IMG/VR virus record: IMGVR_UViG_3300008470_001855
Span: 1-20,796 of that record
DNA from: a virus
Length of the DNA stretch: 20,796 bases
Reading direction: 5' to 3' (one strand)
In this document: positions 2,296 to 20,635 of the stretch, one piece after another
How positions within the stretch are numbered: position 1 is the stretch's first letter
How the letters are laid out: each line of letters begins with the position of its first letter
Position numbers and translations under genes: made by a program
Notes under the pieces: model-generated
Told to the model about the DNA's origin: nothing
Seen by the model: the letters and a program-made list of their open reading frames with translations, nothing else
Databases searched by the model: none

Positions 2296-2301
2296 AAAAT
2301 T

Positions 2302-2628: not shown

Positions 2629-2634
2629 TTTTAA

Positions 2635-3423: not shown

Positions 3424-3424
3424 T

Positions 3425-4006
3425 ATGAGTGATAATAGTAAATTAATGGCAATGTTAGCTGGCGCTAAGAATGTTATGAATAAAGTAGAATCTGGAAATT
3501 ATGAAGTTGGTAATGTTGATGTAAGTAAACAATCCCAAACTTCAGATAATTTAGTTGAAAGTGTACAAGGTACGTCAAGTGACGAATATACCTCTAGACC
3601 TTCAAACACCACACCAATGGGTAATTCCTATAGAAATTTAAGTACAAGTAAAATGGACCCTGCGGTAATTAAAGCTATGGTAGATAACCCAATGCCACAA
3701 CAAACTATGGGTAGCGGTGGTGGACCAACTTTTACATTAGAAGATGTCCAGGGGTTAGTTAAAACACAATCTACAACAGCACCTCAATACACATCACAAC
3801 CAATACAAGAGCAAGCTCCGGCGAATCATTATGGTCAAAAAATGATTACTATGACTGAAGCTGAATTAGAAGCGAAGATTAAAAATACATTATTCGAATT
3901 TATGGCAACTACATTCGTTAAAACGCTTAAAGAAGAAACAATAAAAAAGACTATTACAACTTTAATAAAAGAAGGTAAACTCAAAGTTTCTAAAAAAATT
4001 AAGTAA
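3425..4006 (+). CDS. Hypothetical phage protein with C-terminal helix
   Basis: A 193-residue protein and the last gene of the operon. The N-terminus (MSDNSKLMAMLAGAKNVMNK) is helical. The middle, about 30-135, is Ser/Thr/Gln/Pro-rich and probably disordered. The C-terminal 55 residues form a charged helix beginning ITMTEAELEAKIKNTLFEFM and ending in ...TTLIKEGKLKVSKKIK. Similar 'helix-linker-helix' proteins sit next to neck and capsid genes in T4-like phages, but I cannot assign one. The start is two bases after the previous stop, and the stop is about 20 bases before the intrinsic terminator. Confidence 0.72.
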   Translation: MSDNSKLMAMLAGAKNVMNKVESGNYEVGNVDVSKQSQTSDNLVESVQGTSSDEYTSRPSNTTPMGNSYRNLSTSKMDPAVIKAMVDNPMPQQTMGSGGGPTFTLEDVQGLVKTQSTTAPQYTSQPIQEQAPANHYGQKMITMTEAELEAKIKNTLFEFMATTFVKTLKEETIKKTITTLIKEGKLKVSKKIK

Positions 4007-4026
4007 AATAGTTCTATTTTCAAAAT

Positions 4027-4052
4027 AAAAACCCACATTTGTGGGTTTTTTT
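4027..4052 (+). terminator. Strong rho-independent terminator ending the first plus-strand operon
   Basis: AAAAACCCAC (4027-4036) pairs perfectly with GTGGGTTTTT (4041-4050) across an ATTT loop and runs into a T tract to 4052. The GC-rich core is CCCAC/GTGGG. It follows the stop at 4006 by 20 bases. The A-rich left flank also gives a T run on the opposite strand, so the element could act in both directions. It separates the late virion-type operon from the carbohydrate island. Confidence 0.9.
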
Positions 4053-4101
4053 ATTTACTAATCTTTTATTTTTATTATATTACGCATATAAAATAAAATA
4101 G

Positions 4102-5343
4102 ATGAAAGATAAACAAATTAGAATATTAGTAGTACCGTCAGATAGAACCGGAGTATCCTATTATAGGTCAACAAAACCACACATACATTTAGAAAAACTA
4201 TATCCAGATTCATTTAGAATTGATATTGATTACGAACCAAAACTTAATAATGATGAATGGTTAAAACAATACGATATCATTCATTACCATAGAACACTAG
4301 GTCCTTATGATAAAATGGAAGAGTTACTAGAAAAAATTAACGGTTTAGGTATAATAACGGTTATGGATATAGATGATTATTGGTCACCAGGTATTCATCA
4401 CCCAGCGTATCATATAATTAAAAACGAAGGGTTAGATAAAAAAATAAAAAATAATATTAAATTGGCTAAAAATGTTATTACTACTACACCTATTTTTGCT
4501 AATGAAATTTCTAAATTCAATAAAAGTGTAACGGTTTTACCTAACGCTATTGACCCTACAGAGAAACAATTCTTAACTAACCCAACTAAATCTGATAGAA
4601 TTAGAATTGGATGGTTAGGTGGTAGTTCTCACCTTAAAGATTTGGAATTATTGAAAGGAGTTGTAAGTAAGTTGAAGTCTGAAAAAATATTAGATAAGGT
4701 TCAATTTGTTATTTGTGGATTTGACATTAGAGGTAATAAATCAATGATTAATCCGAAAACTGGTGAAAAAACAACTAGACCTATAACGCCAGATGAAAGT
4801 GTATGGTGTAAATATGAGGAGATTTTCACTAATAATTATACAACTATTAGTCCTGAATATAAAGAACACTTATTAAAGTTTAAGGAGACAGAGTTTCATG
4901 ATATTGAAAATGAACCATATAGACGAGTTTGGACTAAACCAATTAATAGTTACGCTAGTAATTATAATCTATTTGATATTTCATTAGCACCATTAGTTGA
5001 AAACACATTCAATAAAGTTAAAAGTCAATTAAAAGTAATTGAAGCTGGATTCTTTGGTAAACCTATTATTGCTCAAAACTTTGGACCATATCAAATAGAT
5101 TTAGATAATGCATACCAAAAAGGTGGTACTATTGATATTACTAAAAACGCTTTATTAGTTGATAGTCATAAGAATCATAAGTCATGGGTTCAGTATATTA
5201 AAAAGTTAGTTCAAAACCCTGAATTAATTGGGATTTTAGGAGCTAATTTAAATAAAATGGTAACTGAACGATATTCTATTGATGCAGTTAGTGAGAAACG
5301 AAAGATTTATTATGAAAAACTTGTCCAAGAGCAAAAAAAATAG
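4102..5343 (+). CDS. GT-B fold glycosyltransferase (GT4-like)
   Basis: A 413-residue cytosolic protein of usual length for GT-B enzymes. The N-terminal Rossmann-like half starts RILVVPSDRTGVSYYRS (7-23) and includes IIHYHRT (59-65) and MDIDDYW (88-94). The hinge and donor half contain LPNAID (146-151), GWLGGSSHLKD (170-180) and KVIEAGFFGKPIIA (311-324), whose E314 corresponds to the donor-binding Glu of the GT4 family. Sugar donor and acceptor are unknown. It is the first gene after the terminator and opens the island. It ends in a run of eight A bases just before its TAG; a small gene overlaps this end in another frame. No signal peptide is present. Confidence 0.88.
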   Translation: MKDKQIRILVVPSDRTGVSYYRSTKPHIHLEKLYPDSFRIDIDYEPKLNNDEWLKQYDIIHYHRTLGPYDKMEELLEKINGLGIITVMDIDDYWSPGIHHPAYHIIKNEGLDKKIKNNIKLAKNVITTTPIFANEISKFNKSVTVLPNAIDPTEKQFLTNPTKSDRIRIGWLGGSSHLKDLELLKGVVSKLKSEKILDKVQFVICGFDIRGNKSMINPKTGEKTTRPITPDESVWCKYEEIFTNNYTTISPEYKEHLLKFKETEFHDIENEPYRRVWTKPINSYASNYNLFDISLAPLVENTFNKVKSQLKVIEAGFFGKPIIAQNFGPYQIDLDNAYQKGGTIDITKNALLVDSHKNHKSWVQYIKKLVQNPELIGILGANLNKMVTERYSIDAVSEKRKIYYEKLVQEQKK

Positions 5344-5710
5344 TATATTTGCATTAAGTTTAGTAAGAGTATTAAAAGATTATTTTATTGAGTTTATTTT
5401 TAAATTCTATTGTTTATTATTTAATGATAATATTCTAGATTTTATAGGATTAAAATTAGGTCTATTAGAAATAAAGGAACTTCAATACGAAGCAGAAGTT
5501 AATAGGATAATTGAATTAATCGATTATAAACCTAAATTAATGAGGGAGTTTCGAATCATTAGGGATGTTAATGGTGAAATGCCTTTTCATGATTATCTGG
5601 AATGCTTTATTTCTGAACTAAACAAATATGAAGAAACAAAAATAACAAACAATGAGTTTAGAGAAACAACAAATCGCAGCGAACATGAAGAAATATCTTT
5701 CAGTGGCTGA
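5312..5710 (+). CDS. Possible small unknown gene overlapping both neighbours
   Basis: This reading frame (132 codons from the ATG at 5312) fills the otherwise empty stretch between the glycosyltransferase stop (5343) and the HD-like gene start (5652). It is rich in Ile, Leu, Phe and Lys, with hydrophobic helices around residues 12-45 and a charged C-terminal half, EVNRIIELIDYKPKL onward. It overlaps its neighbours by 32 and 59 bases, far more than other genes here, which weakens the call. An upstream in-frame ATG at 5279 would enlarge the overlap, so 5312 is preferred. No family is recognised. It may instead be a decayed or chance frame. Confidence 0.45.
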   Translation: MKNLSKSKKNSIFALSLVRVLKDYFIEFIFKFYCLLFNDNILDFIGLKLGLLEIKELQYEAEVNRIIELIDYKPKLMREFRIIRDVNGEMPFHDYLECFISELNKYEETKITNNEFRETTNRSEHEEISFSG

Positions 5711-6230
5711 AGACCCTAATTCTGGGTTTATGACTGAAGAATTAAAAGAATTAATTGGTACTGATTTAATGGTAGCGCCAGCATCAACAATGTTAAAATT
5801 ACATAATGCTTTCGAAGGTGGTTTAATCGACCATATCCTAAAGGTTATGAAGTATGCATACAAAACCAACCTTATGTTACCTGATAATATGCAAGTAACC
5901 AAAGAATCCTTAATTAAAGTGGTGTATTTACACCAAATAGGTAAATGTAATTTATACGTACCTAACACATCTCAATGGCATAAGGATAAATTAGGTAAAA
6001 TGTACGAATTCAATGATGATATCACTTCAATGAGAGTTGGTGAACGTTCAGTATTTTACGCACTTAATAGTGGTGTTAAATTAACTGATGAAGAATTCGC
6101 TGCAATAGTCAACCATGATAAAGTTGATGATGCCATGTCAGAGTGGCATAATACCGTTATCGGTGAAGTTCTTAAAGTTGCTAATAAATTAGCAATTCTT
6201 GAAGAGAAGGACATAGCCGGAGAATTGTAA
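5652..6230 (+). CDS. HD-domain-like phage protein with altered HD motif
   Basis: A 192-residue protein resembling phage HD-superfamily proteins. The visible order is an N-terminal helix ending KKYL (13-16), APAS (42-45), HNAFEGGLIDHILKVMKYA (51-69) with the first metal-type His H61, LHQIGK (93-98), YVPNTSQWHKDKLGKMYEFN (102-121) and NHD (154-156). In active HD phosphohydrolases the second motif is usually LHDIGK; here the Asp is Gln (codon CAA), so the enzyme may be inactive or changed. The start at 5652 is kept because it includes the helix seen in relatives, although later Met codons exist. It shares a base with the dUTPase start. Family is fairly sure, activity is not. Confidence 0.7.
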   Translation: MSLEKQQIAANMKKYLSVAEDPNSGFMTEELKELIGTDLMVAPASTMLKLHNAFEGGLIDHILKVMKYAYKTNLMLPDNMQVTKESLIKVVYLHQIGKCNLYVPNTSQWHKDKLGKMYEFNDDITSMRVGERSVFYALNSGVKLTDEEFAAIVNHDKVDDAMSEWHNTVIGEVLKVANKLAILEEKDIAGEL

Positions 6231-6694
6231 TGGATATAAATATTAAAAAATTACATACAGATGCAGTAATCCCAACTTATGCTAAAGTTGGGGATGCTGG
6301 TATGGATTTAACAGCAACTAGCAAAGAAATTGATAAATATGGTAACGTTATGTATGGCATCGGCTTGGCTTTGGAAATTCCACATGGATATGTTGGTCTT
6401 ATATTTCCACGTAGCAGTGTTAGTAAGTTTAACTTAAATTTAGCAAACTCAGTTGGAGTAATAGACTCTGGTTATAGAGGAGAGTTAATTTGTAAGTTTA
6501 AACCTACAGCAAAATTCATCACTAATGGTGAATTTGGTAATTCCGATTTTAATTTATATAATATAAATTATGAAATTGGACATAGGGTTGCACAAATAAT
6601 GATAATACCAATACCAGAGATTGGATTTAATGAAGTTGACGAATTATCTGATACTGATAGAGGTGAAGGTGGATTCGGTTCTACAAATACATAA
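6230..6694 (+). CDS. dut: dUTP diphosphatase (trimeric dUTPase)
   Basis: Hydrolyses dUTP to dUMP and pyrophosphate, keeping uracil out of phage DNA and feeding dTMP synthesis. All five motifs are present in 154 residues: I DAGMDLTA (22-29), II PRSS (60-63), III GVIDSGYRGEL (76-86) with catalytic Asp79 and uracil-pocket Tyr82, IV GHRVAQ (117-122), and V RGEGGFGST (144-152). A short insertion of about 15 residues, GEFGNSDFNLYNINY, precedes motif IV. The length is normal. The ATG overlaps the preceding TAA by one base. Placement inside a glycosylation island is unusual, but phage dut genes are often scattered. Confidence 0.96.
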   Translation: MDINIKKLHTDAVIPTYAKVGDAGMDLTATSKEIDKYGNVMYGIGLALEIPHGYVGLIFPRSSVSKFNLNLANSVGVIDSGYRGELICKFKPTAKFITNGEFGNSDFNLYNINYEIGHRVAQIMIIPIPEIGFNEVDELSDTDRGEGGFGSTNT

Positions 6695-6699
6695 AAATA

Positions 6700-8193
6700 A
6701 TGATTAGTATAGTATGTTCTAGTATAACACCAAACGGTGCTTATAAAAAGGAGATTTTAAATAAAATAGGATTAAAAAATGTAGAGTTTTTACACTACGA
6801 GAATAAAGGTGAATACTCTTTAAGTGAAATCTATGAAAAAGGGTTAGCTGAGAGTCAACATGATATTGTTCTCTTCATTCACGATGATATAATCTTAAAT
6901 ACTAAAAATTGGGGTAGGAAATTAATTAAACATTTCGAAACTTCAAATTTTGGTATTTTAGGTGTTGCTGGTACCACCAAATTAAACTCTAGTGGTACTT
7001 GGTGGGAAAATAAAGAACATATGGTTGGCATTGTTAACCATAAGCATAATAACCACACTTACACTTCAAAATATTCAGCCAATTTAGGTGATAAAATCGT
7101 TAAAACTTTACTAGTTGACGGTGTATTTTTTGCAGTAGATAAAAAAAGGTTAAAATATCAGTTTAATGTCGAAGTAAAAGGATTTCATTTCTATGATATT
7201 GACTTTACCTTTGGTAATCACGTTAATGGTTGTGATGTAGGTGTAATATTTGATATAAGAATCACTCACCTATCAATAGGTCAAACCAACGAAAAATGGG
7301 AAGAAAATAAAGTGAATTTTGTTAAAAAATGGGAGAAAAATATCCCATTAGAATTAATTCCAGATATGATTTACCCTGAACCTAAACTGCACATCAAAAA
7401 ACAACCTAAAGTTTCTATAATCATACCACATATTAATAATCATGCATTATTAATAACGTGTCTTGACTCTCTGTTCACAACAAATTATGATAATTTCGAA
7501 ATTATCGTAGCTGATACTGGGTCTGAGGATGTTAATGATTTAGAAGATATGCTTAGTGATTACACAAATCTAAGATTGGTTAAATATGATTATTATAATT
7601 TCGCTAAAATAAATAATGACGTTGTTTCTAACCATATTAGTGATGATTCTGAATTATTATTATTCTGCAATAATGATATCGAAATGATTAATGATGCAAT
7701 TAGTATCATGGTTAAGTATTATATTAGTAATAAACAAAGTGTTGGTACAGTTGGTTGTAGATTACACTTTGATAACGAATTAATACAACATTCAGGAGTT
7801 GCTATATATTATAGAGATTCAAATAAACAAATATTCATATCACACTTAGGTATTAATAGTTATTATGGGTATAATGCCGACCCTGAGAATGTGATAGGTA
7901 ATACAGCTGCATTTTTATTAATCAATAAACACCTATTTAATAAAGCCCATGGATTTAATGAAAAATATATTGAATGTTTCGAAGATGTTGAATTGAATTT
8001 AGAAGTATTGAAGATGGGTAAAAGTAATATTAATATTAGTGATGCGGTATGTTGGCATAGAGAAAGTTCAACTAGAAGTAAAAGTGAACATAAAGATATT
8101 AGACAAACTAAAGATTATAATGAAAGGTTAATACCCTACATTAATAAAAATTTTAACACTAATATCTCTAAATATATTAAAATTATACAATAA
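6700..8193 (+). CDS. Two-domain GT-A glycosyltransferase (GT2-like)
   Basis: A 497-residue protein with two tandem nucleotide-sugar transferase domains. The N-terminal domain (1-230) has ISIVCSS at its start, LFIHDDI (58-64) with a DXD-like pair, and GFHFYDIDFT (161-170), resembling the GT2-related family in which a long loop precedes the second acidic motif. The C-terminal domain (236-497) begins KVSIIIPH (237-244), then VADTGSED (270-277), CNNDIEM (323-329), the ECFEDVELN acceptor-base region (425-433) and CWHRESSTRS (451-460), all standard GT2 features. Each domain could add a different sugar or an alternating unit. The spacer upstream is A-rich; the stop overlaps the next ATG. Confidence 0.88.
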   Translation: MISIVCSSITPNGAYKKEILNKIGLKNVEFLHYENKGEYSLSEIYEKGLAESQHDIVLFIHDDIILNTKNWGRKLIKHFETSNFGILGVAGTTKLNSSGTWWENKEHMVGIVNHKHNNHTYTSKYSANLGDKIVKTLLVDGVFFAVDKKRLKYQFNVEVKGFHFYDIDFTFGNHVNGCDVGVIFDIRITHLSIGQTNEKWEENKVNFVKKWEKNIPLELIPDMIYPEPKLHIKKQPKVSIIIPHINNHALLITCLDSLFTTNYDNFEIIVADTGSEDVNDLEDMLSDYTNLRLVKYDYYNFAKINNDVVSNHISDDSELLLFCNNDIEMINDAISIMVKYYISNKQSVGTVGCRLHFDNELIQHSGVAIYYRDSNKQIFISHLGINSYYGYNADPENVIGNTAAFLLINKHLFNKAHGFNEKYIECFEDVELNLEVLKMGKSNINISDAVCWHRESSTRSKSEHKDIRQTKDYNERLIPYINKNFNTNISKYIKIIQ

Positions 8194-9080
8194 TGAATGT
8201 ATTAGTAACAAATAACACATTATCAGGGTTAGGTGGAAGTGAAACATACGCTTATACGTTAATTAGAGAACTTCACAGTCGTCCAGATATAAATGTAACC
8301 GGATTCAGTAGAAATATTGGAATGATTGGTAACAAATTAAAAGAACAAGGGATTAACATAATTAATAAGGCAGTTGGTGACTATGATTTAATATTAGCAT
8401 CTCACACTACCACAATACCTTTTATAAAAGGTTTGAAGGGTACTAAAATACAAACGTGCCATGGTATTTATGATAATGCTGAACAGCCAGTGATGGGAAT
8501 GGATGGTTATGTTGGTATTAGCCAAGAAGTGTATGACCACCTTTATGAAAAAGGAATCGTAAGTACGGTGATACATAATGGTATCGACTGTGATAGATTT
8601 AAATCCACCACCCCTTTAAATAAAGAATTAAAAAGTATATTATCTTTAACACATTCTGTTGAATTAAATGGAATGTTACAAAATGTTTGTGATAAAATGG
8701 GCATTAAATTAAAGTTACTTAATAAACTTAAGAATCCTATATTCAATGTTGAAGATGAAATTAATAAGTCTGACCTTGTAGTATCTTTAGGGCGTGGAGT
8801 TTATGAATCACTGGCTTGTGGTAGAAATGTTCTTATCTTAGATAAAAGGCCTTATATTAAAGCTCCACCATTAGGTGATGGTTTAATATTCCCTAATAAT
8901 ATGAATGATTTTATAAAAAATAACTGTAGTGGTAGATATTCATATAGGAATTATAATGAAGAATTGATTGAAGCTGAACTATTAAAATATGACTCATCAT
9001 TAGGTGATTTTGGTAGGGAATATGCATTGAAAAATCTAAATATTAAACATCAAGCAGATAAATACTTAAATATATTATGA
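8193..9080 (+). CDS. Compact GT-B glycosyltransferase (GT4-like)
   Basis: A 295-residue protein, shorter than the typical 350-400 of the family. It has an N-terminal GLGGSETYAYTLIREL (12-27), which fits the GT4 glycine-rich donor loop, HNGIDCDRF (128-136) at the domain boundary, and GRGVYESLACGRNVLI (200-215), with Glu205 as the donor-binding Glu. The shortened N-terminal domain runs only to about residue 130. It starts in TAATG with the previous gene and overlaps the next by four bases (ATGA), indicating tight co-translation with the GT2 enzymes on both sides. Substrates are unknown. Confidence 0.85.
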   Translation: MNVLVTNNTLSGLGGSETYAYTLIRELHSRPDINVTGFSRNIGMIGNKLKEQGINIINKAVGDYDLILASHTTTIPFIKGLKGTKIQTCHGIYDNAEQPVMGMDGYVGISQEVYDHLYEKGIVSTVIHNGIDCDRFKSTTPLNKELKSILSLTHSVELNGMLQNVCDKMGIKLKLLNKLKNPIFNVEDEINKSDLVVSLGRGVYESLACGRNVLILDKRPYIKAPPLGDGLIFPNNMNDFIKNNCSGRYSYRNYNEELIEAELLKYDSSLGDFGREYALKNLNIKHQADKYLNIL

Positions 9081-9811
9081 AAGTAATTGGAATAACAAGA
9101 GTTAGAAACGAAGAGAATATAATACAAGCAACACTAGACCATGTATCAACATTAGTTGATGGAATAATTGTTTGTGATGACGCATCAACCGATAATACTG
9201 TTGAGATATGCGAAGCACATGAAAGTGTGATTAAGGTGATTAAAAATGAGGTTTGGGCTACCACACCAGGAGGTAGAAGTCATGCCGAAGGTTCTTTACG
9301 TCAATTACCATATGTAGAAGCGGTTAAAGAAGGTGCTGATTGGGTTTATTATTTTGACGCTGATGAATATGCAGACTTCTCATTGGTGGATTTTAATTCA
9401 AATGTTGAAACTTATATATTTAGGTTATTCGATTATTACATAACTGAAGATGATATTGATGACCATTATTTAACTAGACCGAATATGGGTCCTGAATATA
9501 GGGATATTCATATGTTATTTAAAGTAAATGGGAGAATAAATTTTAGGAGTAGAATTCCTAATGGATTCAGTGGTCCTGTGGCTCTTGGTGGTTATGTAAA
9601 ACATTATGGTAAAGCCATTAGTGTTGAAGAATGGGATAAAACTTGCGAATATTACATAAATAATCGTTGGTGTGGTGGTGTAAGTAATATGTTATTACAA
9701 CGATGGAAAAATAGAATCGGTAAAGCCATTCACACAGAATCTGATTTTGGAAAGCCTTTTATAACTTGGAATGATAGATTCGACACAAGTAAAATAAAGT
9801 TAATGAAATAA
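9077..9811 (+). CDS. GT-A glycosyltransferase, family 2
   Basis: A 244-residue single-domain enzyme of usual length for small GT2 proteins. RVRNEENII (8-16) is the typical start of beta-1, CDDASTDNT (33-41) binds the nucleotide, and FDADEY (93-98) is the DXD metal motif. The C-terminal half is less conserved and contains PNGFSGPV, a Trp/Tyr-rich segment and a basic end. It probably acts in the cytoplasm on a nucleotide-sugar made by or shared with the adjacent aminotransferase pathway; that link is inferred from position. The aminotransferase begins two bases after its stop. Confidence 0.9.
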   Translation: MKVIGITRVRNEENIIQATLDHVSTLVDGIIVCDDASTDNTVEICEAHESVIKVIKNEVWATTPGGRSHAEGSLRQLPYVEAVKEGADWVYYFDADEYADFSLVDFNSNVETYIFRLFDYYITEDDIDDHYLTRPNMGPEYRDIHMLFKVNGRINFRSRIPNGFSGPVALGGYVKHYGKAISVEEWDKTCEYYINNRWCGGVSNMLLQRWKNRIGKAIHTESDFGKPFITWNDRFDTSKIKLMK

Positions 9812-9812
9812 A

Positions 9813-11003
9813 ATGGAAGAAAAAAATATACCATTATTTAAAGTTTATATGTCACCTGAAGCTCCAATCGCTGCAACTAAGGTATTGAAATCAGGATATA
9901 TTCGTCAAGGACCAATTGTAGACCAATTCGAGGATAAACTTAAAGGTAGGTTTAATAATGATTATGTTGCTACAACTAATTCAGCAACATCAGCTGAACA
10001 TCTAGCATTACACTTATTAAAAAAACCAAGAAAAAGTGTTATTAATAATCACGGAGTTGCGTTCTATGAATCTGTATGGCCAGGCTTAGAAGATGGAGAT
10101 GAAGTTTTAGCGACTCCATTAACTTGCACTGCAACTAATTTTCCAATTTTAGGTAATAATTTAAAAATAAAGTGGGTTGATATAGACCCTAAAACTCTAA
10201 ATATGGATTTAGATGATTTAGCTAGAAAAATAACCAACAAAACTAAAGTTATATTTTTAGTGCATTGGGGCGGTTATCCAATGGATTTAGATAAATTGAA
10301 AGATATTCAGGTGAATTCTGAAAGACTTTACGGATTTAAACCTGCAATAATTGAAGATTGCGCACACGCATTTGGTAGTAAATTTAATAACAAACCAATT
10401 GGTTCTCATGGAAATATCTGTACATTTAGTTTCCAAGCAATAAAGCATCTAACATCAGTTGATGGCGGTGCGTTAGTTTTACCACATAAAGAGTTATATA
10501 CTAGGGCTAAGTTATTAAGGTGGTATGGAATTGATAGAGAGTCGGATAGAAAAGATTTTAGATGCGAGGCCGATATTCCTGAATGGGGTTTTAAGTTCCA
10601 TATGAATGATGTTTCAGCCTCCATAGGTTTAGCAAATTTAACTAGTGTTGATGAAAATGTCATTAATATTCATAAATCAAATGGTAAGTTTTATGATGAA
10701 GAATTAAAAGGTGTTAAAAATGTAACTTTACTTGAAAGGGATGACAGGATGGAATCAGCCTATTGGATATACTCATTATTAGTTGAAGATAAAGATAGAT
10801 TTAGTGATTATATGAAAAAATGTGGTATTACCACTAGTCAAGTTCATGAAAGAAATGATATACATTCTTGTTTAACAGAATTCAGAACTCAATTACCAAA
10901 TCTAGATAAAATAAGAAATAAATTAACCTCAATACCTGTCGGTTGGTGGGTATCAAATGAAGATAGACAATATATTGTAGATTGTATTAAAAAGGGATGG
11001 TAG
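9813..11003 (+). CDS. DegT/DnrJ/EryC1/StrS-family sugar aminotransferase
   Basis: A PLP-dependent enzyme that transfers an amino group, usually from glutamate, to a nucleotide keto-sugar. In 396 residues it shows SGYIRQGP (27-34), TTNSATSA (54-61), TPLTCTATN (101-109), LVHWGGYPMDLD (149-160), EDCAHAFGS (181-189) with PLP-ring Asp182, and FSFQAIKHLTSVDGG (205-219) with Schiff-base Lys211. An insertion-like stretch at about 71-93 sits before GDEVLATP. Together with the acetyltransferase and reductase that follow, it suggests synthesis of an N-acylated amino-deoxysugar. The donor keto-sugar and carbon position are not known. The end overlaps the next gene by seven bases. Confidence 0.94.
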   Translation: MEEKNIPLFKVYMSPEAPIAATKVLKSGYIRQGPIVDQFEDKLKGRFNNDYVATTNSATSAEHLALHLLKKPRKSVINNHGVAFYESVWPGLEDGDEVLATPLTCTATNFPILGNNLKIKWVDIDPKTLNMDLDDLARKITNKTKVIFLVHWGGYPMDLDKLKDIQVNSERLYGFKPAIIEDCAHAFGSKFNNKPIGSHGNICTFSFQAIKHLTSVDGGALVLPHKELYTRAKLLRWYGIDRESDRKDFRCEADIPEWGFKFHMNDVSASIGLANLTSVDENVINIHKSNGKFYDEELKGVKNVTLLERDDRMESAYWIYSLLVEDKDRFSDYMKKCGITTSQVHERNDIHSCLTEFRTQLPNLDKIRNKLTSIPVGWWVSNEDRQYIVDCIKKGW

Positions 11004-11797
11004 ATGTAAAAGGTCATGACGAATTCGGATTTATTTTATGGTATCACGCACCTAAAGCATATTATCATTACGTTAATAACGAATTGAATAGTACTGATAG
11101 TAAAATTGGCACTCAACCTGTTTTTTATTTCTCTGAAAATCACCAAGAACATAAATTACATACATTGCCATTTAGTGAATATAAAACATGTTATAATCAT
11201 TCAGCCCCTAAATTTACAAATACCGAATGGTTAGCACCTCCATATAAAAGCATATATAAAAATGATGTTTATAGATTTAATAAACCAATATTAACCATAA
11301 ATAATAAAAATAGTTTGGAGTGGGGTAATAGTGGGATATATAATTATTTTAACGCACAATCACTTAGAAAGATTTATGAGGGATTTCAAGATTCACATCA
11401 AATTATATATATTAGACCACCAAATGATGGTGAATCTTGTAGTTTTCAAAGAGATACTAATCAAGAACAAAATAATATTGGTGATATCGAACTTTTAACA
11501 GAATTTCCAGAGGTATTATGGATAGGTGATTTATTAAAAAATAGTGATAAATCTTATAATGAACTTCAATTTATGTTATTAGCCAATTCAGATAAACATA
11601 TTTCATGTGCTGGTGACGCAGTAATATCATCTTATTTTGGTGGAGATGTTTTAATATATAATTGCCCTAATTGTAATTCTAGTAATAGAGGTGTTTGGAA
11701 AACTGATTCGTGGTTAGGTAAGTTATCCGAAGCTAAAATTCATGGATTTAATAACTATCATAAATTAATTGATAAAGCAGTCGAATTATGGAAATAA
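10997..11797 (+). CDS. Unknown protein, possibly a GT-B/fucosyltransferase-like glycosyltransferase
   Basis: A 266-residue protein without a firm family. Features are a Tyr/His-rich N-terminus, YIRPP (138-142), a helix-strand segment SYNELQFMLLANSDKHIS (186-203) with AGD (205-207), SYFGG (212-216), and a CPNC pair (223-226). The arrangement 'strand, basic residue, acidic region, SD.hIs.aGd...s.yFGG' recalls the donor half of fucosyltransferase-like GT-B enzymes; this is a weak inference. CPNC could bind metal or form a disulfide. It overlaps the aminotransferase and the acetyltransferase by a few bases, so it belongs to the same island. Confidence 0.6.
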   Translation: MVDVKGHDEFGFILWYHAPKAYYHYVNNELNSTDSKIGTQPVFYFSENHQEHKLHTLPFSEYKTCYNHSAPKFTNTEWLAPPYKSIYKNDVYRFNKPILTINNKNSLEWGNSGIYNYFNAQSLRKIYEGFQDSHQIIYIRPPNDGESCSFQRDTNQEQNNIGDIELLTEFPEVLWIGDLLKNSDKSYNELQFMLLANSDKHISCAGDAVISSYFGGDVLIYNCPNCNSSNRGVWKTDSWLGKLSEAKIHGFNNYHKLIDKAVELWK

Positions 11798-12231
11798 GAT
11801 TAATGGTTAAGAATGATTTAGAATTCTTCAATAGCGTTAGAGTTAAAAGTTTTATGTTTTTACATGATAATACAAATTATACATTAGAAGATAATATTAA
11901 ATGGTTTGAAACTCTAAAAGACCCGTTCTATATAGTATCAATAGATGGTGAATCTATAGGATATTTCAGAACTTCTAATTGGATTGATAACTCATTATAC
12001 CTTGGGTTGGACATATCAATTAAACATAGAGGTAATGGTTACGCATTTAAAGCTTATAATTTATTTTTTAATAAATTAAAATCATCTTTTAATATAAATA
12101 AAATATATCTTGAAGTTTTATCTTCAAACAAACGAGCAATACATCTTTACAATAAATTAAATTTTACTATAATAGACGTATTACCATACTCAGATAACCA
12201 TAAAAGCATTAAAATGGAATTAAAATTATGA
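11788..12231 (+). CDS. GNAT-family N-acetyltransferase
   Basis: A 147-residue protein, normal for GNAT enzymes. It has the acetyl-CoA loop in motif A, GLDISIKHRGNGYAFKAY (73-90, core RGNGYA 81-86), and motif B SSNKRAIHLYNKLNF (112-126). It probably acetylates the amino group installed by the nearby DegT-type aminotransferase, as in pathways for 4-acetamido-4,6-dideoxysugars; the pairing is inferred from position. The start overlaps the previous gene by ten bases, and the stop overlaps the next start by four bases. Confidence 0.87.
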   Translation: MEIRLMVKNDLEFFNSVRVKSFMFLHDNTNYTLEDNIKWFETLKDPFYIVSIDGESIGYFRTSNWIDNSLYLGLDISIKHRGNGYAFKAYNLFFNKLKSSFNINKIYLEVLSSNKRAIHLYNKLNFTIIDVLPYSDNHKSIKMELKL

Positions 12232-12902
12232 CTAAGGTATTAGTATTAGGTGATGAATTACTAGGTAGTGAAATCGTAAAACAAACTGGCTGGGATTATA
12301 TGTCTAGGAAAACTGGTTTTGACATTAATGATTTAGGTGCTACATATCTTGGTTACAATGTGATTGTTAATTGCATCGGATATACCAATACGTACTCACA
12401 TGATAAAGAAAAGCATTGGGACATCAACTATGCGTTCGTTAACGACTTGGTAGATTATTGTAATAAGTATAAAAGAAAAATAATTCACATATCAAGCGAC
12501 TATATTTATGCTAGGTCTGAAATTAATGCTAATGAAGACACAACCGTACCCGTTCACGATGAAAATTGGTACAGTTATACTAAGTTACTAGCCGATGGGT
12601 TGATTCAACTTCGTTCAAGTGACTATTTATTATGTAGATGTTCATTTAAACCAAACCCATTCCCTTATGAAAACGCATGGGATGACCAATTAACCAATGG
12701 TGACTATGTAGATGTGATATCAGGTATGATTATTGAAGCGATTAATAAAGATTTATCTGGAGTTTATAATATTGGAACCGAAGTTAAAACAATGTATGAA
12801 TTGGTTAGTAAGAGTAGAGATGTCATTAGAAGCAACTCAATATATGGCGCACCGAAAGATGTGTCTATGAATATCGATAAATTTAAAAAAGATATAAAAT
12901 GA
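12228..12902 (+). CDS. RmlD-like SDR nucleotide-sugar reductase
   Basis: A 224-residue short-chain dehydrogenase/reductase-type protein, somewhat shorter than the usual 280-300 residues of dTDP-4-dehydrorhamnose reductases. It has an N-terminal cofactor loop VLVLGDELLGSEI (4-16), NCIGYTN (48-54), IHISSDYIYA (86-95) and the catalytic YxxxK Y115-K119, in WYSYTKLLADG (114-124). The glycine-rich loop is degenerate (G8 and G13 rather than a full GxxGxxG). It likely reduces a keto-sugar nucleotide. Neither a 4,6-dehydratase nor a nucleotidyltransferase is seen in this window, so the substrate would come from the host or elsewhere in the genome. Confidence 0.85.
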   Translation: MTKVLVLGDELLGSEIVKQTGWDYMSRKTGFDINDLGATYLGYNVIVNCIGYTNTYSHDKEKHWDINYAFVNDLVDYCNKYKRKIIHISSDYIYARSEINANEDTTVPVHDENWYSYTKLLADGLIQLRSSDYLLCRCSFKPNPFPYENAWDDQLTNGDYVDVISGMIIEAINKDLSGVYNIGTEVKTMYELVSKSRDVIRSNSIYGAPKDVSMNIDKFKKDIK

Positions 12903-13882
12903 TAAAATGGTTTAAAAGGAAATTGGCATTAGCAGCTTTCGCTCTATCCAAGACAGAAAAAATAGCACTAGGACAACGAGAAGATGCTTTAGTAGAGAGT
13001 GGTAGTGGTACAAGACAAACATATAACCAAGGTACGTTAGCAGACGCTTTACTTAGAGGTGAAATAACGCTCCCTGTGAAAGAATTAAGGTGGAGACTAT
13101 ACAAAGTACTCTCAGAGTCTAAAAGTCGAACTGCGACCATTACAGGATACGATAAAGATGGTTTACCAATCGTTAAGACATCCTCAATTGAGAAATACAA
13201 GTTAAATAAGATTATTTGTGATGATGAGGACCCATATCCGGTTGAGTTGGTGGTGGATAATTTACCATTAACAAAATCTACATTTGATACGTTTAATAAC
13301 TTTGACTCAAATTATATTTCGGGAGATACTAGACCAGTACCAAAACAAGAAATGTTTGAAATTATTGGACAAGAAATTACAGGAACATCGTTTACCCACA
13401 TTGAAGTTCCGTTTGAAGATATGATGTCAGAATTAAAGGATATTAAAACTTTATTTGTGGTTAGGGAAGCAAAACCTAAATTTGAAAAAGAATTTTACAC
13501 TAAAAAGATGTTAGTTAGGAATATTTCAGATACGGAAAAATTATTAGAGTTTTACGTTTCGAAATATCCAGATGAATACAATAGAAAAAGTAGGTTATTC
13601 ATTAATGATATTAAAAAATGTATTAAAAATCCTAGATTTTCAGATTTACTAGAAATAAATAAAGTAGGTTTTATCTCAGATAAGACTATAGGTTGTGATG
13701 ATGGGCTAGAATATGAGTATGAAATTACTAACTTCCATAAAATTGTGGAATTCAATGGGTTCTATATGATAAAGTTTAAAGCTAAGCCATTAATCAACGG
13801 TGAGGATGTTTTTAATAAGTACAAATTAGACGAATTAGAAGAGAGGTATGAAAATAAAGAGGCTAAAAAACCTTTAGTTTAG
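12899..13882 (+). CDS. Conserved phage protein of unknown function
   Basis: A 327-residue soluble protein, starting MIKWFKRKLALAAFALSKTE. The region 40-75, with QTYNQGTLADALLRGEITLP then VKELRWRLYKVL, looks conserved in large phages (a recollection without a name). The rest is mixed alpha/beta, with basic segments around 185-235. The N-terminus is amphipathic and basic but has no cleavable signal. It overlaps the reductase by four bases (ATGA), so it is co-transcribed with the end of the carbohydrate island, and it is followed by a terminator at 13901-13932. Confidence 0.72.
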   Translation: MIKWFKRKLALAAFALSKTEKIALGQREDALVESGSGTRQTYNQGTLADALLRGEITLPVKELRWRLYKVLSESKSRTATITGYDKDGLPIVKTSSIEKYKLNKIICDDEDPYPVELVVDNLPLTKSTFDTFNNFDSNYISGDTRPVPKQEMFEIIGQEITGTSFTHIEVPFEDMMSELKDIKTLFVVREAKPKFEKEFYTKKMLVRNISDTEKLLEFYVSKYPDEYNRKSRLFINDIKKCIKNPRFSDLLEINKVGFISDKTIGCDDGLEYEYEITNFHKIVEFNGFYMIKFKAKPLINGEDVFNKYKLDELEERYENKEAKKPLV

Positions 13883-13890
13883 TAATAAAA

Positions 13891-13902
13891 TTAATATATT
13901 AA
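13891..13902. other. 12-bp perfect palindrome TTAATATATTAA
   Basis: A perfect AT-only palindrome lies between the stop at 13882 and the terminator stem. It could be part of the terminator upstream A/T tract or a small protein-binding site. An AT-only palindrome of this length is not rare in such sequence, so the function call is weak. Confidence 0.4.
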
Positions 13903-13932
13903 ATGTGAACCCAAATAGGTTCGCATTTTTTT
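13901..13932 (+). terminator. Rho-independent terminator directly abutting phoH
   Basis: AATGTGAACC (13902-13911) pairs with GGTTCGCATT (13918-13927) with one G-U pair (13906/13923), extendable by one A-T pair (13901/13928). The loop is CAAATA, and seven T bases run to 13932. The next base is the A of the phoH ATG. The hairpin thus separates the upstream operon from phoH with no room for a conventional leader after the T tract. Confidence 0.85.
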
Positions 13933-14691
13933 ATGGGACAAAGACGAAAGAATATTCACCCACCAAAGGTGGTGAAAAGTGGTCACACTAAAACCACCAA
14001 TGATAAAAAACCAAAAGAAACAACGGCAAATAAAATCATTGGTAATAAGGTTAGATTAAAGTGTAAAAACGAAAAACAAAAACAATACGCAAATTTAATT
14101 AAAGAAAAGGAAGTTGTAATTTGTTCAGGACCCGCTGGGACTGGAAAAAGTTACGTATCAATTGCAGTGGCAATTGAATTACTACAAAACACATCCAATT
14201 CATATAATAAAATTCTTATTGTAAAGCCAGCTGTTGAGGCTGAAGAGAACCTTGGATTCCTTCCAGGTGATATAAAAGAAAAGATGGCACCGTATTTAGC
14301 ATCATCCATTGATATAGTTGATAAAATACTTGGTAAAGTTACTAGAATAGAGTTAGAGAAGTCAGAAGATTTAATGGCAGAACCATTAGGGTTTATCGGT
14401 GGTAAAACTATTGATAATGCAATCCTCATAATGGAAGAGGCTCAGAACATGTCACCAACACAAATGAAGACATTATTAACTAGAATTGGTTATAACTCTA
14501 AGTATGTAATATCAGGTGATATGGACCAATCGGATAAATATGATAATATTAATAAATCAGGATTATATGACGCTATGATGAAGCATGGTAATGTTGAAGA
14601 GGTTGGTATGTTTGAATTTAATGAAAATGACATCGTTAGGAACCCTTTAATTAGTAAATTATTAAGAAATTATAAAAAATATGAGGAATAA
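13933..14691 (+). CDS. phoH: PhoH-family P-loop ATPase
   Basis: A 252-residue protein. A basic N-terminal extension (1-45) precedes the ATPase: Walker A GPAGTGKS (66-73), VKPAVEAEENLGFLPGD (97-113), Walker B region ILIMEEAQNMS (164-174), LTRIG (182-186) and SGDMDQ (194-199). The family's usual DEAQN is EEAQN here, a conservative change that probably keeps activity. PhoH proteins are common in marine and T4-like phages. Their role is not settled; RNA helicase or nucleic-acid ATPase activity is proposed. The ATG at 13933 is the only Met before the ATPase domain and begins straight after a terminator's T tract. It is followed by a 36-base gap. Confidence 0.93.
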   Translation: MGQRRKNIHPPKVVKSGHTKTTNDKKPKETTANKIIGNKVRLKCKNEKQKQYANLIKEKEVVICSGPAGTGKSYVSIAVAIELLQNTSNSYNKILIVKPAVEAEENLGFLPGDIKEKMAPYLASSIDIVDKILGKVTRIELEKSEDLMAEPLGFIGGKTIDNAILIMEEAQNMSPTQMKTLLTRIGYNSKYVISGDMDQSDKYDNINKSGLYDAMMKHGNVEEVGMFEFNENDIVRNPLISKLLRNYKKYEE

Positions 14692-14727
14692 CGTTTACTT
14701 TAATGATAATTTAAGTACATATAGAAT

Positions 14728-15306
14728 ATGAAAATAGGTATAAGTATAAATGAAGTATTAAGAGACTTCGTAGGACAATTCGGATACGTTTATAGTAAAT
14801 ATATAAATGAAGTCGATTTAAAAGAAAATCCAGTGACTGAATGGAATTTAATAGATTTCTTTTCATTTGATAATGAAGAAGAATTAAATAAGTTTCTATA
14901 CACTGAAGCATCGTATGAGGTATTCGCTATTGCTGACCAGTTACATGATAACGTGGTAACTAAATTAAATAGTTTTATTACTGAAATGGAAGATGAAGAA
15001 CATGAGGTTATTTTAATTAGTAGAGAAGCTAATAAAAGTATCCCATCAACCCTTTTCTTTCTATCAAAGTTAGGGTTTACAGGTAGTAACATTCAATTCG
15101 TAATGGACACGGTTAAAAAGTGGGACGATATTGATATTTTAATTACTGCCAACCCAATTGCGTTAGAAGGTAAACCAAAAGGTAAAATTTCTGTTAAAGT
15201 TAATTCAACATATAATAAAGATATTGAATCCGATTATGAAATTGATAACATAATAGATTTATTTGAAAATGAAAATTTATTAGAAAAAATATTAGAAAAT
15301 GATTAA
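14728..15306 (+). CDS. HAD/5'-deoxyribonucleotidase-like phage protein, probably without the catalytic nucleophile
   Basis: A 192-residue protein. The start MKIGISINEVLRDF (1-14) matches the position of the HAD nucleophile motif (usually IDxDGVL.DF), but Ser and Asn stand where the two Asp residues are expected. Further features are VILISREANKSIPSTLFFLS (94-113), corresponding to the HAD motif II Ser/Thr region, and KWDDIDILIT (131-140), corresponding to the acidic motif. The length and layout resemble nucleotidase relatives in large phages, so it may be a non-catalytic scaffold. The assignment is by pattern only. The end overlaps the next gene by eight bases. Confidence 0.6.
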   Translation: MKIGISINEVLRDFVGQFGYVYSKYINEVDLKENPVTEWNLIDFFSFDNEEELNKFLYTEASYEVFAIADQLHDNVVTKLNSFITEMEDEEHEVILISREANKSIPSTLFFLSKLGFTGSNIQFVMDTVKKWDDIDILITANPIALEGKPKGKISVKVNSTYNKDIESDYEIDNIIDLFENENLLEKILEND

Positions 15307-15658
15307 ATTATTTGGTGAAATATATTATATAGATTTTGAGGTTATTGACGTGTTTTTAAACTCCGACTCATCATTTAAACCTGGTAAGATTGAAGAGTCA
15401 GAAGAGGTTATAACCTACAGTGAAGATAATAAAGTTATAGGACGACAAATAACTAAAAGCAAAACACAAAAACCACGAGAGATTAATGGAGTTAGGTACG
15501 ATATAATTAGAGGGTTAATTTCTGATTTAGGTGATGGTGAAGAAGATGACTCTAAAAATGAATTAGGGATAATAGAGTTAGCAGATATGAATGTAAGATT
15601 CAAACTAGCTTTCAATACATTAACAGCATATCGAATTTTAAAACCAATCGAAGATTAA
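15299..15658 (+). CDS. Small hypothetical phage protein
   Basis: A 119-residue acidic protein with a hydrophobic N-terminus (MIKLFGEIYYIDFEVIDVFL), a charged middle and a C-terminal strand-helix (ADMNVRFKLAFNTLTAYRIL). No family is recognised. The start overlaps the preceding gene, and an A-rich spacer leads to the next glycosyltransferase 11 bases downstream, so it is probably co-transcribed with both. Confidence 0.72.
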   Translation: MIKLFGEIYYIDFEVIDVFLNSDSSFKPGKIEESEEVITYSEDNKVIGRQITKSKTQKPREINGVRYDIIRGLISDLGDGEEDDSKNELGIIELADMNVRFKLAFNTLTAYRILKPIED

Positions 15659-15668
15659 ATAAAAAGAA

Positions 15669-16754
15669 ATGGAAGACGAAAAACAAAAACAAATTGTAGA
15701 AATGATTACTAAAATCGAAGAAAAAGATTTCGGTTTTTACTTTTTTACTTTAGATACTAAAGGCAACCCGGTTGCAAGTGTCGCAACAATTTATGAGCAT
15801 GTGAAAGGTTTAACCGACTTAGGTTATAATGCATATATTTTACATGAAAAAGATGATTACCACGGAGTTGGTGATTGGTTAGGTGAAGAGTATGCTAAAT
15901 TACCTCACCAATCCATTGAAAAACAAGAATTAAATTTATCAACAGTTGATTATATTATAATTCCAGAAGTTTTTTCAAATGTAATGGAACAAGTTAAAAG
16001 CTTTCCATGTAAGAAAATAGTACTAGCTCAATCATATAGTTATATGCTAGAGTTATTAGGTATTGGTTTAAGATGGGATACTAATTTCGGATTTACTGAA
16101 GTTATTACAACTAGCAACGTACAAGGTGATTACATCAAGGAATTATTCCCAAATGTAACGACTCACATTATACCACCATCAGTACCTGAATACTTTAAAC
16201 CAACAAGTAAAATGAAAAAACCAATCATTAGCATTCTTACTAGAGAGCAAAATGATGCGTTAAAATTAGTTAAATCTTTTTACTTACAATATCCAATGTA
16301 TAAATGGATTACATTTAGAGAGTTAAGAGGTTTACCAAAAGAACAATTCGCTAAAGAATTGGGAGACTCTTGTTTGGCGGTATGGGTTGATAATCAAGCA
16401 GGATTTGGTACTTTTCCAGTAGAAGCTATTGAATCTAATACTCCAGTTATTGGTAAAATTCCTGATTTAGTTCCAGAATGGATGCAAGTCATTTCAGACT
16501 CTCAAGAAATAGAGTTAAAGAACAATGGTATATGGACTAATAACGTACTATCAATCCCAACTTTGATTTCTCAATTCATGGAAGTATGGTTAGAAGATTC
16601 AGTTCCTCAAGAATTGTTAGATGGTATTGAAGCGAGTAAAGGATTATATAGTGTTGAAAAACAACATGAAAAAATTTCTGAAGTATATGGTCAATTAGTT
16701 CTTAATAGAAGGACTGAACTTGAGCAATTATTAGAAAAACAAAAAACAGAATAA
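15669..16754 (+). CDS. GT-B glycosyltransferase-like protein
   Basis: A 361-residue protein. The N-terminal half includes GFYFFTLDTKGNPVASVAT (22-40) and VDYIIIPEV (93-101). The boundary motif is HIIPPSVPEYFKP (166-178). The donor half includes SILTREQNDALKLVKSF (188-204) and GFGTFPVEAIESNTPVIGKI (245-264), with Glu252 in the GT4 donor-binding position. These match GT-B enzymes of the GT4 type, although the N-terminal glycine loop is atypical. The next gene, a GT2 protein, starts two bases after its stop, so the pair forms a second glycosylation block. Confidence 0.82.
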   Translation: MEDEKQKQIVEMITKIEEKDFGFYFFTLDTKGNPVASVATIYEHVKGLTDLGYNAYILHEKDDYHGVGDWLGEEYAKLPHQSIEKQELNLSTVDYIIIPEVFSNVMEQVKSFPCKKIVLAQSYSYMLELLGIGLRWDTNFGFTEVITTSNVQGDYIKELFPNVTTHIIPPSVPEYFKPTSKMKKPIISILTREQNDALKLVKSFYLQYPMYKWITFRELRGLPKEQFAKELGDSCLAVWVDNQAGFGTFPVEAIESNTPVIGKIPDLVPEWMQVISDSQEIELKNNGIWTNNVLSIPTLISQFMEVWLEDSVPQELLDGIEASKGLYSVEKQHEKISEVYGQLVLNRRTELEQLLEKQKTE

Positions 16755-16756
16755 TT

Positions 16757-17581
16757 ATGAGTACAGAAAAAAATAAAACTGATATAACAGTAGTATTGCT
16801 AGTATATGGTTTAGATGAAACATTCCAAAATGCAATTGATAGCGTTAAGAGTCAATTAGTACAACCAGAGGAATTAATCATTGTGGTTGGTACTAAAACT
16901 GAGGATATCAAAACGGTTAAAGCACATGATTATGGTGACCTTAACGTTAGAATTGTTGAAAACGATACAGACGATACAGGGTTTCAAAATCAAATGAATA
17001 TAGGTGTTGGTGAAGTCAATACTAAATGGTTTGCATTCTTAGAACAAGATGATGAGATGTCTAATATATGGTTAAAGAACGTAGTTGAATACCGAGAAGT
17101 ATATTCGGATGTAGGAATGTTCTTACCATTAATAGTAGATTTCTCTTCTCCAACAACTGAAATGGTAGAAGGTAAAGAAGTTGAAATTCCTAGTGGATTT
17201 GTAGGTATGGCTAACGAAGCTGTGTGGGCTGCTGAATTCTCAGATGAGATTGGCATTCTAGACAACTCTTCATTATTGAAATATCAAAACTTCAATTTTG
17301 ATGGTATGGTTATGTTAAAAGAAATCTATGAAGACTTTGGTGGAATTAAAGTGAATGTTAAATTAACTTTCATGTATGAATTCCTTTTAAGGATGACATA
17401 TAACACAGTTAAAGTTATGGTTATCCCAAAAATAGGTTATAAACACATTAACTTAAGAGTTGGTGGTGTATTCGACAACTACAAATCAGAGTTAGACCCT
17501 GATGAAGCTAGGTGGTGGTTTGCAACAGCTAAAAGGGAATATTATCATATATCTGATAGAGAGATAGAATATACCGAATAA
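16757..17581 (+). CDS. GT-A glycosyltransferase, family 2-like
   Basis: A 274-residue protein with ITVVLLVYGLDETFQNAIDS (10-29) as the family-2 start, EELIIVVGT (38-46), and WFAFLEQDDEMSN (91-103), with QDDE as the metal/nucleotide motif in place of the classic DXD. The N-terminus is slightly extended. The C-terminal half is variable, with many aromatic residues. Its own stop shares a base with the start of the sigma factor gene (TAATG), so glycosylation and late transcription genes are translationally linked here. Acceptor and donor are unknown. Confidence 0.85.
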   Translation: MSTEKNKTDITVVLLVYGLDETFQNAIDSVKSQLVQPEELIIVVGTKTEDIKTVKAHDYGDLNVRIVENDTDDTGFQNQMNIGVGEVNTKWFAFLEQDDEMSNIWLKNVVEYREVYSDVGMFLPLIVDFSSPTTEMVEGKEVEIPSGFVGMANEAVWAAEFSDEIGILDNSSLLKYQNFNFDGMVMLKEIYEDFGGIKVNVKLTFMYEFLLRMTYNTVKVMVIPKIGYKHINLRVGGVFDNYKSELDPDEARWWFATAKREYYHISDREIEYTE

Positions 17582-18330
17582 TGGCTGAGAAAAGAGGACG
17601 AAAGAGAAAAAATGGTTTATATTTCGGTCCCGAGCAAGAGGAAGCTGAAGTTAGGTTTTTAAATGAAGAAGATTATATTATTAGAAATAAGATATATAAT
17701 GAACACCTTCGTGATGCCTTTAATATAATGATTGAATCAATCATTAGAAGGTATAAACTATACAGAAAAAATTACAGTTTTGAAGACCTACATAGCGATA
17801 CATTATCATACCTTATTCTTAAAGCGGATAAGTTTGATGTGACGCAAGGTAAAAGGGCTTACTCATACTACGGAACTATATGTAAACATTATATATTAGG
17901 ATTAATGATAAAAGATGTCAAATATTTACGTAAAACCTTAGATTTTGACACCTCTATCAATACAGTTCATAAGAATGATAATTACGTTTACCAATTACCC
18001 GATACTGACTATGCTATGTCAGATTTTATCAAAGGAATTTCTGATGATATTAAACAAGAGTTAATTGATAACGAGGACGTTGAAATACGAAAAAAGGAAA
18101 TGACAGAAAATGAACGTAAAGTTGGTGAATCTTTAGTGTACATCCTGGATAATTGGGGAACTATTTTCGAAAATTTAGATGGTGGTACTAAATATAATAA
18201 AAATACCATATTAGCAACCATTAGAGGTTACACAGGGTTAATCACCAAGGATATAAGGATTGCTATGCGTAGGTATAAGAAAATCTATGAAATGATTAAA
18301 ACCTCTAAAATAGAAAATGGTTTTTTATAG
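17581..18330 (+). CDS. Late transcription sigma factor, T4 gp55-like
   Basis: A 249-residue protein. After a basic N-terminal tail (1-15), residues 31-115 look like sigma region 2: RRYKLYRKNYSFEDLHSD (56-73), ILKADKFDVTQGKRAYSYY (79-97) and GTICKHYILGLMIKD (98-112). The 'F.fed L..D.l...l.k..kFD..kg..a.sYy.tI....i' pattern is typical of gp55-type phage sigma factors, which bind host RNA polymerase and read TATAAATA late promoters. Such a motif is present at 1153-1160. There is no region 4, as expected for gp55. The stop lies inside a hairpin (18315-18352). Confidence 0.8.
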   Translation: MAEKRGRKRKNGLYFGPEQEEAEVRFLNEEDYIIRNKIYNEHLRDAFNIMIESIIRRYKLYRKNYSFEDLHSDTLSYLILKADKFDVTQGKRAYSYYGTICKHYILGLMIKDVKYLRKTLDFDTSINTVHKNDNYVYQLPDTDYAMSDFIKGISDDIKQELIDNEDVEIRKKEMTENERKVGESLVYILDNWGTIFENLDGGTKYNKNTILATIRGYTGLITKDIRIAMRRYKKIYEMIKTSKIENGFL

Positions 18331-18352
18331 GTGAATGCTATTAAAACCATTT
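18315..18352 (+). other. Hairpin overlapping the sigma-factor stop, possible weak terminator
   Basis: AAATGGTTTT (18315-18324) pairs with AAAACCATTT (18343-18352), and ATAG (18327-18330) pairs with CTAT (18338-18341), with a small internal bulge and a 7-base loop. The last four codons and stop of the sigma gene form the left arm. There is no clean T tract after it, so a conventional terminator is uncertain. It may protect the mRNA end or mark the boundary before the virion genes. Confidence 0.55.
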
Positions 18353-18379
18353 ATTTAACTATTTATATAGAAAGATAAT

Positions 18380-20192: not shown

Positions 20193-20193
20193 T

Positions 20194-20631: not shown

Positions 20632-20635
20632 GATT

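Follow-up and report, generated by a model that had tools for sequence, protein, structure and literature searches.

Moraphages, large aquatic tailed phages with genomes of 200–307 kb and mostly predicted Bacteroidota hosts, have a core that includes four putative glycosyltransferases (GTs), a sigma factor, a dUTPase and PhoH; their description mentions variable genomic islands, lists the four GT orthogroups but not their location, and defers island function to later work (Perez-Hernandez et al. 2025, PMC12619734). The T4-like marine pelagimyophages carry, between VrlC and gp14, a hypervariable, GT-rich host recognition cluster that is dominated by GT8, mixed with tail fibres and read as modifying host lipopolysaccharide (LPS) (PMC7029224). 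In the chlorovirus PBCV-1, the capsid is glycosylated in the cytoplasm by virus-encoded enzymes: conserved GTs, some of them multi-domain, make a conserved core glycan, which carries a variable, virus-specific decoration that is the signature of each virus (PMC7826918). Here we analyze a glycan locus on the + strand (4102–17581) of the IMG/VR virus record IMGVR_UViG_3300008470_001855, the whole of which (20,796 bases, ~30% GC) we call the window. An earlier note on this DNA had described the locus as a dense carbohydrate island of ~13 kb. The genes it named are there, but they do not form a single island: a variable cassette (8193–12902) lies within a frame of constant genes, an arrangement that the note had overlooked.

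Relatives were found by querying viral contigs with the sigma-like neighbor of the locus, which gave 29 related loci, and by a profile scan with the GT-B gene at 15669–16754, which gave at least 600 stretches, 557 of them confirmed. The constant series runs from the genes at 1199–4006 through the first constant GT (GT 4102; constant GTs are named here by their first position), an HD-domain-like gene, dut and GT 6700, and resumes beyond the cassette with phoH, a nucleotidase-like gene, GT 15669, GT 16757 and the sigma gene. All four constant GTs are present in each of the 12 records whose sequence extends far enough to the left, and GT 16757 and the sigma gene directly follow GT 15669 in 100 of the 100 IMG/VR loci with enough sequence, among the matches listed. 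The catalytic motifs of the constant GTs are kept across orthologues, including H.DI and NND in GT 6700 and E-x-DD in GT 16757.

Between GT 6700 and phoH lies a stretch of 1–23 genes that differs in nearly every genome. The 170 cassette proteins of 17 relatives and the window fall into 99 families, 65 of them singletons, and genome pairs have on average 4.5% of their cassette genes in common. Among the 144 of these proteins scanned with Pfam, matches were mainly to NAD-dependent sugar epimerases/dehydratases, GT2, GT10, GT11, GT25, UDP-GlcNAc 2-epimerases, DegT, hexapeptide proteins, methyltransferases and sulfotransferases. Cassettes are shared where cores are ≥99% identical, and largely different in three pairs with cores 95–99% identical, two of which have clean breakpoints. 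In G007/G008, flanks ~96% identical on both sides enclose a replacement of 2.85 kb and four genes; in G026/G028 (core 95%), 10.5 kb with 16 genes stands opposite 9.5 kb with 13 genes; and in G024/G025 (core 98.7%), 32% of the upstream region aligned, one contig beginning within the cassette. The earlier note had held that the gene content goes far beyond the needs of DNA glucosylation and suggests assembly of a complex glycan, a judgment supported by the seven GTs and the sugar-nucleotide enzymes of the window, by the presence of four of these GTs throughout the lineage, and by the fucosyltransferases, epimerases, methyltransferases and sulfotransferases in relatives' cassettes.

The count of seven GTs extends that of the earlier note, which had named six clear ones (three GT-B and three GT-A, one of these with two domains) and one possible further one. 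All six have family matches or a strong fold match (Table 1); for GT 4102, whose Pfam match is under the curated cut-off, identity is secured by the match to PHROG 7162. The candidate seventh, at 10997–11797, gave an AlphaFold model (built with eight sequences; pLDDT 77) with a GT-B fold, for which WaaC, WaaF and TibC were the top structures (Z 11–14); the best comparison with GT9 heptosyltransferases reached Z ~14, with an rmsd of 3.5–3.9 over 220–224 residues. Because Foldseek with this model returned no match with E below 1e-3, the GT9 likeness comes from the second aligner. By its predicted fold, then, this protein is probably a seventh GT, and seven is the better count. A scan of viral contigs with this protein found nothing, the peptides chosen for it being non-conserved; its relatives surfaced in DegT loci instead.

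Pfam also supports the three sugar-nucleotide enzymes of the earlier note as DegT, GNAT and SDR proteins. The DegT protein matches solved CalS13/AtmS13-like members (4zwv, 4xau and 4zas) with E values of 1e-107 to 1e-117, and has relatives in at least 253 IMG/VR contigs (61–79% identity for the best 80) versus 17 genome loci (≤62%). The subfamily turns up far more often in virus contigs than in the genomes sampled, and some of the 17 genome loci are on short, possibly viral contigs of metagenome-assembled genomes. Among 97 DegT loci, a GNAT relative lies nearby in 36 and a GT9-like protein in 7. The GT-B protein at 8193–9080 has homologues in L007 (65%) and L113 (45%), and in L113 five of the six window cassette proteins recur in a changed order, which suggests that the window cassette is one functional set. 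From what is known of these families, the GNAT protein likely N-acetylates the DegT product, so that the cassette would yield an N-acetylated amino sugar nucleotide.

Of the structure predictions that the earlier note had called for, two were run, one for the GT9-like protein and one for GT 15669, in which Pfam had no credible match (searches of window proteins were reported at E ≤ 0.1, with curated cut-offs noted separately). The AlphaFold model of GT 15669 (27 sequences; mean pLDDT 89.9) has a GT-B fold, and its best PDB match is AmGGT (8xsg; Z 31.1, rmsd 2.9 over 316 residues), followed at Z 23.0 by the second-best protein. A sequence profile searched against the PDB had 8xsg as its sole match (E 3.6e-14; 17% identity), and Glu231 of AmGGT, which contacts uridine, corresponds to the invariant Glu252 of the phage protein. 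Model and profile thus agree in placing GT 15669 as a distant homologue of the Agt/AmGGT family. Agt and AmGGT both extend sugars in the cytoplasm, the former putting glucose onto adhesin-bound glucose and the latter onto oligosaccharides (PMC12159676).

Because four GTs are fixed while the cassette of sugar genes is swapped wholesale between near-identical phages, a changeable glycan coat is probable, most likely on the phage's own particles. We somewhat favor a modular locus whose enzymes make a virion-protein glycan in the cytoplasm, its core constant and its outer part swappable. The four constant GTs, one of them with two catalytic domains, would work in the host cytoplasm, building and extending a core glycan whose carrier is most likely a virion protein; strain-specific sugars would come from the enzymes of the swappable cassette, which would also add them to this core. 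In this phage, the substrate of DegT and GNAT may be a nucleotide-keto-sugar of the host, from which they would form an N-acetylated amino sugar for the cassette's three GTs to add together with further sugars. Recombination in the constant flanks could then swap cassettes and give close relatives different sugar coats, with protection from defence or adjustment of adsorption as the possible benefit. The logic of such a locus might resemble that of bacterial O-antigen loci or of the core-plus-decoration capsid glycans of chloroviruses. Tentatively, we suggest that the locus may be the "serotype locus" of an abundant jumbo-phage lineage, O-antigen-like in its universal GT frame and exchangeable cassettes, in which a strain-specific complex virion glycan would be switched by cassette replacement, as a counterpart of the chlorovirus system.

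Synthesis in the cytoplasm is suggested by the solubility of the enzymes. The glycan enzymes of the window have no hydrophobic segments, and among the 170 cassette proteins two have one segment and none has two or more, while the same test counted 9 segments in E. coli flippases and 6 each in the O-antigen polymerase and P22 GtrC. No cassette contains a flippase, polymerase, ligase or GtrA/GtrC-type membrane protein, and the lipid-linked priming enzymes PF02397 and PF00953 were found in 0 of 25 records, in which control families were detected. Soluble, stepwise glycosylation in the cytoplasm fits the lack of both multi-pass proteins and lipid-linked priming enzymes.

These absences also bear on the main rival explanation, that the enzymes remodel the host envelope during infection (O-antigen, capsule, S-layer or surface-protein glycan) via host lipid-linked or surface acceptors, thereby excluding competing phages or protecting the cell. 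Such a role has been proposed for the GT-rich hypervariable region of pelagimyophages (PMC7029224), and the cassette enzymes are of LPS and capsule types; yet the membrane and priming proteins are lacking as described above, and the four GTs stay constant in phages that should infect hosts with different surface glycans. We regard envelope remodelling as unlikely, though to be taken seriously. Soluble enzymes, the lack of lipid-linked priming genes and the AmGGT/Agt homology favor a virion protein over the host surface circumstantially.

Several points weigh against a virion-protein glycan. Many bacterial O-antigen GTs are soluble, so that soluble enzymes are still compatible with a host lipid-linked glycan, and since most IMG/VR records are fragments, absences of genes in them are weak evidence. 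In G007/G008, the 96% identical pair, fibre-sized genes were replaced as well (2030 vs 1714 aa and 642 vs 597 aa), a pattern that also fits adaptation to the host surface. Glu223, the residue of Actinobacillus AmGGT that contacts glucose, is missing in the phage family, where it aligns to Ala or Ser, and the donor and activity of GT 15669 may therefore differ from those of AmGGT; we establish kinship in fold and sequence, and do not assign AmGGT glucosyltransferase specificity. Finally, acceptor, glycan and activities are all predictions from the gene content. The replaced fibre-sized genes of G007/G008 sit upstream of the GT 4102 orthologue.

The earlier note had named DNA, besides virion protein and host surface, as a possible target, in which case the GTs would glycosylate modified phage DNA bases against restriction and the cassettes would give different base sugars. 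DNA hypermodification with several GTs is known in phages (Pyle 2024, as cited in PMC12619734), and the moraphage authors themselves name DNA as a possible target (PMC12619734). This reading is weakened by the distribution of thymidylate-synthase-family genes, which occur in 5 of 14 records and are missing from the 254-kb one; the two that were inspected have a PFN motif, which marks them as ThyA-type and not as hydroxymethylases. The window GTs had no Pfam match to the T4 alpha- and beta-glucosyltransferase families at E 0.1, and up to 23 mostly sugar-type cassette genes would exceed the expected need of a base sugar. DNA as the acceptor is thus improbable. Least probable of all is that auxiliary genes of sugar and nucleotide metabolism without a single product have loosely gathered at an insertion-tolerant site, for although dut, the HD-like gene, phoH and a nucleotidase-like gene are interspersed and any hotspot collects mobile genes, the commonest cassette Pfam matches are sugar enzymes, the frame itself consists of four GTs whose catalytic motifs are conserved, and the combination of DegT, the GT9-like protein and GNAT is seen again in other phages.

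Table 1. Coordinates in the window of the constant frame, the variable cassette and neighboring features, with the evidence for each
Feature	Position	Strand	Evidence or remark
Intrinsic terminator upstream of constant GT no. 1	4027–4050	+	10-pair stem, T tail; among the two strongest on the + strand
Constant GT no. 1, GT-B, 413 aa	4102–5343	+	PHROG 7162 glycosyltransferase 1.3e-45; Pfam Glyco_trans_1_4 2.4e-4, below cut-off
HD-domain-like metal-dependent phosphohydrolase, constant, syntenic	5652–6230	+	PHROG 28876 1.2e-10
dUTPase (dut), constant	6230–6694	+	PHROG 135 3.8e-48
Constant GT no. 2, two GT-A (GT2-like) domains, left cassette border	6700–8193	+	PF13712 (Glyco_tranf_2_5) 1.2e-23; PF00535 (Glycos_transf_2) 1.3e-13
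Variable cassette, six genes (GT-B, GT-A, DegT, GT9-like GT-B, GNAT, SDR)	8193–12902	+	
GT-B glycosyltransferase, 295 aa	8193–9080	+	PF13439 N-domain 4.5e-6, below curated cut-off
GT2 glycosyltransferase (GT-A)	9077–9811	+	PF13704 1.2e-13; NCBIfam SunS-like 9.6e-11, far below cut-off
DegT/DnrJ sugar aminotransferase	9813–11003	+	PF01041 1.8e-68
Probable seventh GT, GT-B fold, GT9 heptosyltransferase-like	10997–11797	+	AlphaFold model; no Pfam match
GNAT acetyltransferase	11788–12231	+	PF00583 6.3e-11; PseH model 1.3e-9, below cut-off
Short SDR nucleotide-sugar epimerase/reductase	12228–12902	+	PF01370 4.3e-10; PF04321 7.1e-10
Right cassette border gene, 327 aa, no assigned function	12899–13882	+	Syntenic in part of the lineage
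Intrinsic terminator closing the 4102–13882 gene run	13901–13928	+	11-pair stem, T tail
PhoH-like ATPase, constant	13933–14691	+	PHROG 170 1.3e-66
Constant GT no. 3, GT-B, distant AmGGT/Agt homologue	15669–16754	+	Fold model and profile
Constant GT no. 4, GT-A (GT2), directly upstream of sigma	16757–17581	+	PF00535 6.1e-10
Probable phage sigma factor, constant neighbor	17581–18330	+	No family match

The genes that break up the GT series were recognized by the earlier note as dut, an HD-like gene and phoH, and PHROG matches agree in each case; a sugar role for the HD-like gene is unlikely. Relatives have an orthologue of GT 4102 (59–68% identity) in the corresponding position. Among phage records, GT 4102 is most similar to a protein of the 735-kb uncultured huge phage LR756501 (36% identity), and it is ~26% identical to GTs of phapecoctaviruses. 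The gap between it and the HD-like gene (5344–5651) is covered by an open reading frame at 5279–5710, or by a shorter form of it with an internal ATG, with no PHROG match. The right border gene has orthologues of 34–70% identity in 7 distinct sequences, and likewise no PHROG match. Downstream of the locus, 18748–19518 and 19773–20192 are in different frames, separated by a 254-nt gap, and relatives have a single gene of ~470–570 aa there; the split is a frameshift in the window record, natural or from assembly. PHROG named little among the neighbors in relatives beyond capsid and protease, ~7–15 kb downstream of the sigma gene on the opposite strand.

Relatives seldom keep the two terminators: 5 of 18 loci have one ahead of the GT 4102 gene, and 3 of 55 have one ahead of phoH. 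The bounds of the 4102–13882 gene run therefore do not hold as a general rule. We take the sigma gene product to be T4 gp55-like, an identification that family searches do not back. The T4-type late promoter sequence TATAAATA occurs 4 times in the window, compared with 8 by chance, and is rare upstream of constant genes in relatives, and we therefore rejected gp55-type late promoters. A Shine-Dalgarno-like motif precedes 2 of 26 gene starts (1199–20636), and leaders are 83% A+T, as in Bacteroidota. Rfam and tRNA scans of the window had no match. A search of phage records for near DNA matches to the window returned matches confined to dut, in Acinetobacter phages, and tblastn in phage records found no match for the constant GT-B (GT 15669), the right border gene or the GT9-like protein.

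Judged by its core genes, the window lineage appears to match the moraphages: dut and PhoH are supported by family search and the sigma factor by recognition only, all three being syntenic in relatives, and the constant GTs presumably correspond to the four orthogroups of the moraphage paper. The histone H1-like protein reported in moraphages (PF07432, Hc1) is present in the 254-kb G008 (3.3e-21) and in 0 of 13 other records, several of which are short fragments. Relatives of the window reach 254 kb and 205 kb, with no end repeats, and MCP, TerL and PolB were not recognized in the 20.8-kb window fragment. The window sigma has a distant match to Flavobacterium phages.

Glycan genes are common in phages, and their product is seldom known. 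Here a constant enzyme frame with a fast-replaced cassette extends across an environmental phage lineage that hundreds of contigs represent. With a virion protein as the acceptor, these phages would have strain-specific, switchable sugar coats, with a bearing on adsorption, on evasion of bacterial and animal defences, and on phage serotyping. The cultured Flavobacterium phage immuto (NC_055915) makes the question directly testable with a related cluster.

Among known systems, the chlorovirus one belongs to a eukaryotic algal virus and its glycan is solved, whereas the glycan here is hypothetical and no homology of the systems is claimed. O-antigen conversion by P22 gtrABC also uses phage GTs to alter a glycan, but it needs a membrane flippase and transferase, none of which is among the 170 cassette proteins. 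In immuto, the soluble glycan cluster (gp169–gp181) combines GTs with two DegT-type genes, a methyltransferase and an epimerase. The immuto DegT is 58% identical to that of the window, and the phage has a distant sigma homologue, but the cluster lies ~18–24 kb from the sigma gene and is not framed by the GT-B/GT-A pair. The pelagimyophage cluster and the present locus are both hypervariable and GT-rich, while the window cassette holds glycan-type genes only, with no fibre gene recognized by Pfam, and has four constant GTs as its frame. We found no description in the open-access literature of a phage locus that combines a universal GT frame with replacement of cassettes; relative to the moraphage paper, what is new here is the locus of frame and cassette, its replacements and the homology to AmGGT.

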